From Favolaschia claudopus (lineage: Eukaryota > Basidiomycota > Agaricomycetes > Agaricales > Mycenaceae): a stretch of DNA of 64,000 nt. Numbering within the stretch: position 1 is the first letter of the stretch; every line of letters starts with the position of its first letter. The notes below the pieces were generated by a model. That model saw only the letters and a program-made list of their open reading frames with translations. It was not told the DNA's origin and ran no database searches. The DNA lies in contig JAWWNJ010000025.1 of assembly GCA_037176885.1 (NCBI GenBank), positions 1,612,001-1,676,000 of the forward strand, written 5' to 3'. Shown here one piece after another: positions 10,803-30,747 of this stretch. Position numbers and translations under genes: made by a program.

Positions 10803-11489
10803 GGTCTCCCACAGAAAGAGTGCTAAATTGATAAAGCGCTACTCGAATGATCACTGTTGCGGTTGAGCTAAACTGCGGCTTGAAGGTTATAGTTTGCGAT
10901 TCTCAGTCAAAGAGAGATAAGGGATTGCCCAGAATCTCGAGGAGGATTAGAGTTGGAATACAGGTCGCAGTTGGCAGGGAACACGATTTATTGTCCTACA
11001 CAGCCACCAATGGAAGTGATCATCTCCTCCAGTTGTCCTCCAGCTTGATTGTGTCATTCAGCAATCTTCAGCAATTCAGCAGCAGATCAAGCAAATTTGG
11101 CATTGGAACAAGGCACAGAGAACGGTCGTCCAACCTGACGGCATCATGATAGGTGAGAGACGCTCGCATCCATGTATCTCGAGTCGCGCTGATCAGTGAA
11201 ATCGACTTCTCGCAACCGTCTTATATGCCGAGAATTCGAAGAGGTTGAATAGATGCTGCAGCCAAGCCGCACCATCATTCTAGGATGACCCAGGTCAGCC
11301 AAGTGAAGTCCCAACTTCCAAATGCGGCCTACTACCGCCCACGACCAAAAAAGGCAAAAAAAGGTCATGTCGCAAAACATCGTGGTTAATGAGTCCAAGA
11401 CTTCGATCTAAATCCCTCATGACGAGGAGAATACAACTACCGTATGAGAACAGGACCTAGTGCAAGACGCTCGCAAGCAGCCCTCTTCG
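10803..11489. other. intergenic region, no gene seen
   Basis: 687 bp between the 3' end of BCP1 and the start of the ADF-H/PH gene, both on the minus strand. It should contain the BCP1 terminator and the ADF-H/PH promoter. Frames of 80-100 codons occur on both strands but have no exon-like structure or family resemblance. Confidence 0.5.
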
Positions 11490-18508: not shown

Positions 18509-18596
18509 AACCGTTGATGGGACTCGAACCCACAGCCTTTGCCTGTGGTAGTTTCCAAATTAGGAAAGCAATGCACTACCTTTGTGCTACAACGGC
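18509..18596 (-). tRNA. tRNA-Arg (anticodon CCU) with a 16-nt intron
   Basis: Read on the minus strand. The acceptor stem GCCGTTG (from 18596) pairs with CAACGGT (18516-18510), the discriminator is T, and a T run (18510-18506) gives a Pol III terminator. D stem GCAC/GTGC; anticodon stem TTGCT/GGCAA; T arm GTGGG-TTCGAGT-CCCAT with a perfect B box GGTTCGAGTCC. The 23-nt anticodon loop is best read as TT-CCT-A, a 16-nt intron, then A, giving anticodon CCU. TTTCC around the anticodon can pair with GGAAA in the intron, the usual pre-tRNA pairing. The isotype depends on the intron position. Confidence 0.8.
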
Positions 18597-27772: not shown

Positions 27773-30747
27773 ATGTCCCGACTCATCATTCAGAACCTCC
27801 CGGTCTATGTAACTCCAGCAAGGCTTAAAGAGCACTTCGAACAGAAGGCGGGGCCTGGGGGAACCATCACTGACTCCCAGGTTGCACTAAAATCCGATGG
27901 GACGTCGCGGCGTTTTGGATTCATTGGATACAAAACCGAACAGCAAGCACTGGCCGCGAAGGAATGGTTTCATCGTACATTCATAGACTCGACAAAAATT
28001 AAAGTCGACGTCGTCGAGGTGAGCACATTTTTTTCGACAACGGTGCAGCATTTTAACGGATGTTGGAAGTAGGGTGTAAAAGACGCGCCCGCACCCCGAC
28101 CGAATAAACGACCACGGTTGGGGCCGTCTCCCAATGAATTGAAGCAGGAACAGTCTGCGTCTGCGTCTAAGCCCTTGCCGGCTCCCTCCAGGTCGTCTGG
28201 CGAGTCGCAGCTTGACGAATTTCTTCAAGTCATGCAACCCCGGGGAACCAAGGGGAGAACATGGGCTAACGAAGCTGCGCCACCACCACCTTCGGACTCT
28301 CAGCCCGCTGACGACGCTATGCAAGACGAAGAATCGTTGCAAGCAGAGGGTCTCTCAGACTTGGATTGGATGAAACGACATATGTCGAAGAGCGCTGACG
28401 CAGTGGAGAAAGCATTCGAGCAATCGGATGACGAGGACGCCTCACCTCCTGTTCGTCAAGTTTTTTCTTGTTCCAGCCGCCGTTCCTCAGTATATGCTAT
28501 CAGCCACCAGCACCTTCTTCGCCTCAACCTCCGAAAGACCCAACCAAGGAGACCATTCTTCAGACATCCCGGTTGTTCGTTCGGAATCTGGCGTTTTCTT
28601 GTACCGAGTCGGATCTGCAGGAGCTTTTCTCGCCCTTCGGACAAATTTCTCAGGTGAGTCCGTAGATCTCATACACATTGTTGGTCGGGGGAGGTTGGCG
28701 ACGATGTCAAAACAAATAGGGACAGCAGACATTTGTGCATGTTGATCCAATTGGAATCCGATAGTAGAACTTTTTCTGAGCTTTTTTTCCTTCTCATTAC
28801 ATTCGTTCGTGGACCATCGGCTGACTAGACTTTTATCAGGTGAATATGAGTGTCCATTTTTGTTGCAAGATGACACGATAAATAGGGACAGCAGACCTTC
28901 GGGCATGTTGATCCTCTTGGAATCCGATAGTAGAAATATTTCTGACACTTCATTCCATCTATTTCTCTCGGGCATGAGCAACGATACTAACGCGCCGATT
29001 GTAGGTGACTATCATAATCCCTTTTCGATTTTGGGATGTCAAAACACATAGGGACATCAGACCTTCGGGCATGTTGATCCTCAGGGAAACCGATAGTAGA
29101 AATAATATTCTGATCTTTCTCTGCCTGCGAAAACCAACGGCGACTGACGATTTTTAGGTTCATATACCGCTCGATTCCGCTTCAAAGCAATCCAAAGGCG
29201 TTGCGTATGTGACGTTCAGTCAAGCAGCAGACGCTCTCACCGCGTACGAGAGTCTCGATCGCAAGTCTTTTCAAGGACGAATTATTCACATATTAGGCGC
29301 CGTCGACCGCAGACCGAAGTTCGAGGTTGAAGAGGGTCAGAGTGGGAAGAAGACGGTCAAGGGCGAGAAGCTGGCCCAGCGCAAAGCAACTGCCGGGAAA
29401 GAATTCAATTGGAGTATGCTCTACATGAACGTAAGCATGTCTTTCCCGGAACGATATCCTCGATTCTAACTACTGTACAGAGTGACGCTGTTGCATCATC
29501 CATCGCAGACCGCATGCAAATATCCAAATCTGAGATCTTGAATCCCGAGTCGTCAGACAATGCCGCCGTCAAACTCGCACTGGCCGAAACCCACATCATT
29601 CAAGAGACCAAGACGTATCTGGAATCTCAGGGCGTTCTTCTGGACTCTTTCTCCTCCCGTGCGCGCTCAGATACTATTATCCTGGTGAAAAACATCCCAT
29701 ACGGCACGACACCAGAGCAGATACGAGAACTGTTCGAACCACATGGTACCCTGACACGCGTGCTCGTCCCGCCAGCAGGCACGATGGCCGTTGTGGAATT
29801 TGGGGCGGCCGATGAGGCCTCAGCAGCTTTTCGTGCAGTTGCGTACAGGCGACTGGGTAACTCCGTTGTCTATCTCGAGAAAGGGCCCCAAGGGATGTTC
29901 GGAGACGGACCTGTGGGCCAGCCAATGGGCGTCAACTCGGCGTCGAATGCTCATGTCGTCCGGATCGCAGAGCAAGCCGTGGGTGAAGCGACCGAGGAGG
30001 AGCCTGCTTTGGGAGCAGGAATGACTCTGTTCGTGAAGAATCTGTCCTTCGCTACCTCAAGCGAGCGTCTGACGCAGATGTTTGGGACTCTGCCCTCATT
30101 CTCGTTTGCGCGGGTGCAGACTAAGCCTGATCCCAAGCGGCCGGAGGGGCGTCTGAGCATGGGGTATGGCTTCATCGGTTTCAAGGACGTGGACGGCGCG
30201 AAGAAAGCTTTGAAGAGCATGCAAGGCTTTGTCTTGGACGGACATGCGCTACATGTCAAATTTGCAGGCCGAGGCGCAGAGGATGCGGACCAGAGCAAGA
30301 GCAGTGTCACAGCAAAGAGCAGAACGACAAAAATGATCGTGAAGAATGTCCCCTTCGAAGCTACCAAGAAGGATATACGGGAACTCTTCGGGTGTGTCTT
30401 TTCGTGGGTTCGGTATTGTTCGCGGCTCATTAGCATCTTATTGTAGCTCTCACGGCCACCTCAAGTCTGTGCGTTTGCCGAAGAAATTCGATTCCCGCAG
30501 TCGAGGCTTTGCGTTCCTCGACTTCGTATCAAGACATGAAGCTGAGAATGCCTATGCTGCACTCAGGCATACGCATTTGCTGGGGAGACATCTGGTTCTG
30601 GAGTGGGCTGAGGAAGCGGAGCAGGACCTCGACGCGTTGCGCCAGAAAGTCGGGGCTGGCTTTAGTTCAGGAAAGGAAATGCCGGGCAGGAAGCGTAAAC
30701 TGGATATGGGACGGAAGGGTGAAGATGATCCAGAGGCGTTGGAGTAG
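27773..30747 (+). CDS. MRD1: Mrd1/RBM19 multiple RNA-binding-domain protein for 18S rRNA processing
   Basis: Pre-rRNA processing factor with five RRMs, bound to 35S/90S pre-ribosomes. Start MSRLIIQNLPVYVTPARLKEHF at 27773 (RRM1, with RRFGFIGYKTEQQA). A linker is followed by QTSRLFVRNLAFSCTESDLQELF (RRM2 RNP2) and, after a 504-nt composite intron, KGVAYVTFSQAADA (RNP1). RRM3 has DTIILVKNIPYGTTPEQIRELF, RRM4 MTLFVKNLSFATSSERL and YGFIGFKDVDGAKKAL, and RRM5 TKMIVKNVPFEATKKDIRELFG and SRGFAFLDFVSRHEA. It ends at 30747. The frame across the long intron is ISQ|VHIP, phase 0. See the separate entries for that intron and its RNAs. Confidence 0.95.
28703..28779 (+). ncRNA. intronic box C/D-like snoRNA candidate, copy 1 of 3
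   Basis: Element from GATGTCA (28703, C-box-like but weak) to CTGA (28776, D box). Contains ATAGGGACAG (28716-28725), followed by CAGA as a possible D' box, and GATAGTAGA (28760-28768). Both are complementary to adjacent parts of the 25S segment that I recall as CTGTCCCTATCTACTATC. TGTTGAT could serve as a C' box. No clear terminal stem. The second match lies seven nt from the D box, not the usual immediate spacing. Confidence 0.5.
28869..28945 (+). ncRNA. intronic box C/D-like snoRNA candidate, copy 2 of 3
   Basis: Best C box of the three: AGATGACA (28868-28875); D box CTGA at 28942-28945. The antisense stretches ATAGGGACAG (28882-28891) and GATAGTAGA (28926-28934) are the same as in copy 1. 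The middle (CCTTCGGGCATGTTGATCC) is shared with copy 3. It sits alone in the second sub-intron, so one lariat would carry one RNA. Confidence 0.52.
29035..29113 (+). ncRNA. intronic box C/D-like snoRNA candidate, copy 3 of 3
   Basis: GATGTCA at 29035-29041 and CTGA at 29110-29113. The first antisense stretch is one base shorter (ATAGGGACAT, 29048-29057), while GATAGTAGA (29092-29100) is unchanged. The spacer before the D box is two nt longer than in the other copies. Differences fall mostly outside the putative guides, which suggests selection on them. Confidence 0.48.

Follow-up and report, generated by a model that had tools for sequence, protein, structure and literature searches.

A three-unit intron of MRD1 in Favolaschia claudopus with a predicted snR64 snoRNA in each unit and likely stepwise splicing

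The 504-nucleotide (nt) intron of the MRD1 gene (multiple RNA-binding domain protein 1) of Favolaschia claudopus is built of three joined units, each with a predicted snR64 small nucleolar RNA (snoRNA), and is probably removed by stepwise (recursive) splicing, one snoRNA lariat leaving at each step. It was studied in a 64,000-nt stretch (hereafter the window) of the 2.11-Mb contig JAWWNJ010000025.1, positions 1,612,001 to 1,676,000, in an assembly of 264.6 Mb (GCA_037176885.1). The sequence finding is sound, and the stepwise mechanism, as read from the splice signals, appears well motivated. What is new is the setting, i.e. a protein-coding host, in a basidiomycete, and one snoRNA repeated together with its whole splicing unit; the array type itself is known.

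As the initial annotation had proposed, the intron is an exact succession of three units, of 186, 165 and 153 nt, with zero exon bases between them, lengths and both junctions being exactly those announced. Each of the units comes with its own donor (GTGA), branch motif (CTRAY) and acceptor (YAG), as listed below.

28654..28839, + strand: intron unit 1 (186 nt), donor GTGAGT, branch motif CTGAC at 28821-28825, acceptor CAG
28839..28840, + strand: AG/GT junction 1, zero-length exon and predicted ratchet point, reading CAG/GTGAAT in all three genomic copies of the intron
28840..29004, + strand: intron unit 2 (165 nt), donor GTGAAT, branch motif CTAAC at 28987-28991, acceptor TAG
29004..29005, + strand: AG/GT junction 2, zero-length exon and predicted ratchet point, reading TAG/GTGACT in two copies and CAG/GTGACT in one
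29005..29157, + strand: intron unit 3 (153 nt), donor GTGACT, branch motif CTGAC at 29144-29148, acceptor TAG

The branch adenines predicted from these motifs are 28824, 28990 and 29147; the two internal branch points previously placed at about 28823 and 28989 both exist as motifs, each one base away. In unit 1, the motifs are kept in all three genomic copies except for donor position +6 in one of them (L003). With both strands counted, the window has four matches to the signature CTRAY-N5..20-YAG/GTRA, and two of the four are the internal junctions of MRD1; with the other two taken as background, the expectation is 0.008 signatures in 504 nt (Poisson P for at least two, 3e-5). Those other two lie at position 11135 (+) and on the - strand.

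The internal donors match the complement of U1 small nuclear RNA at 10 and 9 of 11 positions (G allowed for A), compared with 9 of 11 for the first donor and with 8, 5, 8 and 9 for the remaining four MRD1 donors. Once joined to the upstream exon they read CAGGTGAATAT and CAGGTGACTAT and score 10 and 10. Both junctions are thus organised like recursive-splicing sites, i.e. a 3' splice site runs straight into a 5' splice site, which the first step restores. In the long introns of animals, recursive-splicing ratchet points are likewise AG/GT juxtapositions with zero exon bases; the MRD1 array differs in that its introns are short and carry a snoRNA per unit, and in that its ratchet points are predicted ones.

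The host gene was modelled as follows.

27773..30747, + strand: MRD1 gene, start to stop codon, whose spliced product is the public F. claudopus MRD1 (P0001)
28019-28072, 28451-28503, 29431-29480 and 30392-30446, + strand: other MRD1 introns of the exon model (54, 53, 50 and 55 nt)

Removal of the 504-nt intron (28654-29157, between Q and V in RRM2) and of the four others yields a product identical to the public protein at 752 of 752 residues. This exon model was the sole matching solution within the splice-site ranges tried, intron 1 and the 504-nt intron being fixed.

A repeat of 92 nt is common to the three units, the second and third copies being 82% and 75% identical to the first. The initial annotation had noticed one snoRNA-like element per unit, and these elements can now be given an identity, as predicted C/D snoRNAs of the snR64/U74 type.

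28697..28784, + strand: predicted snR64 copy 1; box C region GATG at 28703, D' guide ATAGGGACAG at 28716-28725, D' CAGA at 28726-28729, second rRNA match GATAGTAGA at 28760-28768, box D CTGA at 28776-28779
28863..28950, + strand: predicted snR64 copy 2; guide at 28882-28891, D' CAGA at 28892-28895, GATAGTAGA at 28926-28934, box D at 28942-28945
29029..29118, + strand: predicted snR64 copy 3; guide ATAGGGACA at 29048-29056, D' CAGA at 29058-29061, GATAGTAGA at 29092-29100, box D at 29110-29113

The guides pair perfectly with a large-subunit (LSU) ribosomal RNA (rRNA) fragment of the same genome (identified as LSU rRNA with E 1.5e-20), over 10 nt for ATAGGGACAG in copies 1 and 2 and over 9 nt for ATAGGGACA in copy 3, and GATAGTAGA of all three copies pairs perfectly (9 nt) with the adjoining stretch of that fragment. 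The usual rule for C/D snoRNAs is that the fifth base from D' marks the methylation target; here this base pairs with the first C of TCCC. That C would be the equivalent of yeast C2337, on the basis of homology to snR64 rather than of a numbered alignment. The second match is separated from box D, downstream of it, by 7-9 nt, a distance too great for the usual methylation rule; it may act as an accessory pairing element. All nine copies of the genome have CTGA as box D, and the core of copy 2 shows zero changes among its three genomic copies. The second pair of the D'-C' hairpin is CG, UA or AU and is paired in 8/8 distinct rows; the pairing percentage of this hairpin was reached by 5/500 shuffles, a control that related sequences can beat. 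Three Rfam families that remained below threshold (TtnuCD23, snosnR64 and Afu_335) have AUAGGGACA and UAGUAGA in common with the window.

Yeast snR64 has been tied to methylation of C2337 in 25S rRNA (PMC2806949), and Neurospora crassa CD36, listed with snR64 and U74, is described as intronic, with a 10-nt D' match and 26S Cm2299 as target (PMC2780460). The F. claudopus elements resemble these snoRNAs in their D' guide with a 10-nt match, and CD36 also in being intronic; they differ from them, as so described, in being present three times per host intron and in having a partly degenerate box C. The name MRD1 is absent from the main text of the N. crassa paper.

The single exact copy of the 18-nt target stretch in the assembly belongs to the LSU rRNA fragment (L004 1466-1850; G000:C56, near 257568). 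It is flanked by nested inverted repeats (142 nt at 98%, 57 nt at 100% and 41 nt at 90% identity), like a miniature inverted-repeat transposable element with captured rDNA. The true rDNA array may be absent from the assembly.

Several observations weigh against the snR64 assignment. No snoRNA family of Rfam reached its gathering score, the best attaining 18.4 bits against 38 (RF00509); at that threshold the window gave one tRNA (18509-18596) and zero snoRNA, and L014-L016 gave zero hits. Compared with RUGAUGA, box C has one deviating base in copy 2 and two in copies 1 and 3, with GATG kept in 9/9, and copy 3 is devoid of one guide pair beside D'. The scanned 3-kb locus has further rRNA matches of 9-11 nt elsewhere, one of which exceeds the copy 3 guide match in length, so match length alone proves nothing and the case is made by two adjacent matches together with homology. 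Two of five measures of the D'-C' hairpin were ordinary, namely pairs changed on both sides and further pair types (265 and 208 of 500 shuffles), and the three snoRNA stretches folded no better than shuffles as single strands (z 0.35, 0.38 and 1.20). Good folding is not required of C/D snoRNAs. The Rfam shortfall restricts the formal snR64 label, not the claim of a snoRNA working like snR64.

Searched over the whole assembly, the exact pattern of guide, D', C' and second match gave nine matches, all within three MRD1 loci (reversed pattern, 0 matches), and the first 881 bases of the gene likewise retrieved three loci. Each of these loci has the triple intron. The published F. claudopus genome has 265 Mb and 86.8% of its BUSCO genes duplicated, and RNA-seq was produced with it (PMC10905254). 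The other two copies of the intron lie at G000:C25:1970194-1970698 (-) and C66:472839-473346 (-), i.e. one further MRD1 locus is found on the window's own contig, about 330 kb away and inverted. Over the first 881 bases, identity to the window copy is 92% for L003 and 89% for L002; over the 504-nt intron it is 93% for L002 and 90% for L003. As the ranking differs with the part of the gene, the MRD1 copies look mosaic.

Among the nine units, those with the same place in the array group together (unit 1 of one locus with unit 1 of the others, for instance), so the triple array predates the separation of the three loci. Variable columns number 9/233 in the snoRNAs versus 46/229 in the spacers (P 4e-8). 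Of the six between-unit spacer comparisons in the window copy, four could not be distinguished from shuffles, kinship persisting between the 3' spacers of units 1 and 2 (3/1000 shuffles) and the 5' spacers of units 2 and 3 (27/1000). Since the spacers have diverged and the splice signals are intact in 3/3 copies, the array looks old, and the signals have outlasted the spacers.

These data bear on an alternative that we regard as unlikely, in which the 504 nt leave as one intron, with internal sites that are mere leftovers of duplication, and nucleases cut three snoRNAs from one lariat. The whole-intron product does match the public protein, and the first donor and last acceptor are good. Among the internal splice motifs, 2/28 positions vary, both neutrally with respect to consensus and both at unit 2 (CTAAC/CTGAC and TAG/CAG), which, with all changes counted, is not significantly below the spacers (Fisher P 0.12). 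Zero disruptive changes in 26 motif positions have P 0.003 at the spacer rate, a value that excludes two degenerate positions dropped after the data were seen. Both junction signatures survived in 3/3 copies in 4% of neutral simulations. Removal as a single intron also has to accommodate the survival of all internal donors, branch motifs and acceptors in every copy amid largely shuffle-like spacers, a length nine to ten times that of the other four MRD1 introns (50-55 nt), and the products reported for related arrays, which fit stepwise splicing (PMC3596301).

The stepwise reading would be completed by an origin from a single snR64 intron through tandem duplication. Because the exon junction is CAG/GT, an exact duplication of the intron between two AGGT sites yields AG/GT seams. 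Exonic AGGT sites have been described as seeds of intron gain by tandem duplication, in the case of exonic duplications (PMC4974935). It is quite improbable, in our estimation, that no tandem duplication took place and that snR64 introns were instead inserted side by side (excision-and-insertion model) or intervening exons lost. Both processes are documented for fungal snoRNA introns (PMC3596301), and the four shuffle-like spacer comparisons fit them. The presence of one snoRNA three times points rather to duplication, as does the kinship still detectable in the two other comparisons.

Arrays of this type have been described by Luo et al. (2013) as 'intron-intron-intron' arrays in fungal snoRNA clusters II and III, in noncoding hosts of Ascomycota (PMC3596301). 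The MRD1 intron has the same organisation, i.e. complete snoRNA introns touching with zero exon bases, and cluster III of Euascomycetes also has three units. For a three-intron array of Euascomycetes, 42 spliced products were reported: 18 devoid of intron I only, 14 of introns I and II, 10 of all three, and zero of any other kind (PMC3596301). The arrays of Luo et al., as presented there, are explained by exon loss in noncoding hosts; the MRD1 array is in a coding gene of a basidiomycete and contains the same snoRNA three times, for which duplication is likelier. The main text of Luo et al. contains neither 'snR64' nor 'Mrd1'. Hence the three-unit array is less unusual than had been initially claimed, juxtaposed exon-less snoRNA introns with products that fit stepwise removal being published for noncoding hosts of Ascomycota. 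In open-licence literature, searched by titles and abstract starts, no snoRNA array hosted by MRD1 was found described.

Luo et al. read their products either as 5'-to-3' stepwise removal or as the use of alternative acceptors by one donor, noting that the latter gives the same products (PMC3596301). For MRD1, the corresponding proposal is that the first donor alone works, with any of the three acceptors; the short choices would retain units 2 or 3 and hence a stop codon, with less MRD1 protein made, so that protein output would be tied to snoRNA output. Each of the nine units does contain a stop codon when translated in frame from its first base (in unit 3 of two copies, the TAG of the acceptor is the sole one). 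This proposal appears very unlikely to us: the internal donors, whose fit to the U1 complement equals or exceeds that of the first donor, are unchanged in 3/3 copies.

Candida offers a second comparison with stepwise removal, its snR57-snR55-snR61 introns showing both recursive and nested splicing by RNA-seq, with the nested pathway predominant (PMC5033589). What these introns share with the MRD1 array is recursive splicing across a zero-length exon; in contrast, the Candida system, as described, is a noncoding polycistron with three different snoRNAs, bases common to neighbouring introns and a one-base exon. Stwintrons, which had been brought in as a comparison, resemble the MRD1 intron in being compound fungal introns removed by consecutive splicing reactions, at least as they are described. 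This comparison was abandoned, and the intron is not classed as a stwintron: the splice elements of the three units are uninterrupted, none being split by another intron.

Under stepwise splicing, removal of unit 1 would join the CAG of the upstream exon to GTGAATAT and recreate a strong donor, removal of unit 2 would then join the exon to GTGACTAT and recreate a donor again, and removal of unit 3 would join it to GTTCAT, restoring RRM2 of MRD1. Each step would release one lariat, which after debranching and trimming would yield a mature snR64, directing 2'-O-methylation at the 25S rRNA position that corresponds to yeast C2337. Other orders of unit removal would give an identical mRNA, and incomplete splicing would leave stop codons in the message.

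It may be that a C/D snoRNA depends on a branch point of its own shortly downstream (here 34-46 nt). Measured from where box D ends, the predicted branch adenine lies, at the three loci, 45, 46 and 44 nt away in unit 1, 45, 46 and 45 nt in unit 2, and 34, 37 and 37 nt in unit 3. According to a review, the position of most vertebrate C/D snoRNAs is conserved, the optimum being some 50 nt before the branch point, and AQR/IBP160 helps their assembly (PMC8162545). By analogy, the vertebrate spacing rule may extend to mushrooms. If each snoRNA needs its own branch point, the unit of dosage would be the whole splicing unit and not the snoRNA alone.

The same junction was compared in other mushrooms on predicted proteins, the best 120 of 1279 MRD1 homologs being aligned. 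At the Q/V junction, as we read the alignment, 113 of these 120 have no extra residues, and no lost exon is therefore needed; the other seven have extra or replaced residues, and six of them (all but P0051) were tested. Sharing of five-residue words was useless, because a reversed control matched 58/122 proteins, and shuffled inserts were used instead. The insert of Agrocybe pediades P0110 is clearly snR64 (0/300 shuffles) and consists of two separate pieces in two frames, each covering the D'-C' part (0/1000 shuffles each), so at least two copies of snR64 are present in the Agrocybe intron. Another A. pediades record (P0090) is devoid of the insert, as expected if its model splices the intron out. 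In Lentinula edodes, the insert of P0113 contains YRDIRPSGMLIL, which is translated unit 3 of the sister copies (0/300 shuffles as good). The Hygrophoropsis insert (P0105) is suggestive of snR64 (1/300), and that of Suillus (P0119) was not significant (30/300; halves 270 and 100 of 1000). Two further inserts (P0017 and P0037) were rejected as snR64 (136 and 152 of 300 shuffles).

As judged from these translations, a host intron of MRD1 bearing an snR64-like sequence is common to at least three genera, all Agaricales. The comparison with related species that had been suggested for this intron has in this way yielded at least two snR64 copies in Agrocybe, a possible AG/GT seam there being deduced from protein: the residues SNY before the second piece of P0110 would correspond to A/GTAAYTAY, resembling GTGACTAT of unit 3, if the unit boundary is an acceptor. 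Since the public models P0110, P0113 and perhaps P0105 include translated snoRNA sequence, their MRD1 annotations are likely wrong at the Q/V junction. A protein search with the intron-derived part of Agrocybe retrieved only itself among 7 candidates, and the insert with its flanks retrieved 9 proteins, two of them new and both devoid of the insert. The exact snR64 pattern gave 0 and 0 matches in virus and prokaryote collections, where little was expected.

Taken more broadly, and only tentatively, the snoRNA intron of mushrooms could be an amplifiable cassette, i.e. a tandem array of self-contained snR64 introns in a protein-coding gene of ribosome biogenesis, with AG/GT seams, predating the divergence of the gene copies and with at least two units in Agrocybe; the recognisable snR64 supply would then hang on recursive splicing at one coding exon junction. 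If the proposed mechanism is true, the number of snoRNA copies would have been raised with the host protein left untouched, through duplication of the whole splicing unit, and the rule 'one C/D snoRNA, one branch point' would become testable in a compact natural array. F. claudopus would also provide short and genetically simple ratchet points, with steps of 150-190 nt, in a fungus for which RNA has been sequenced, where the order of splicing and its coupling to snoRNP assembly would be measurable.

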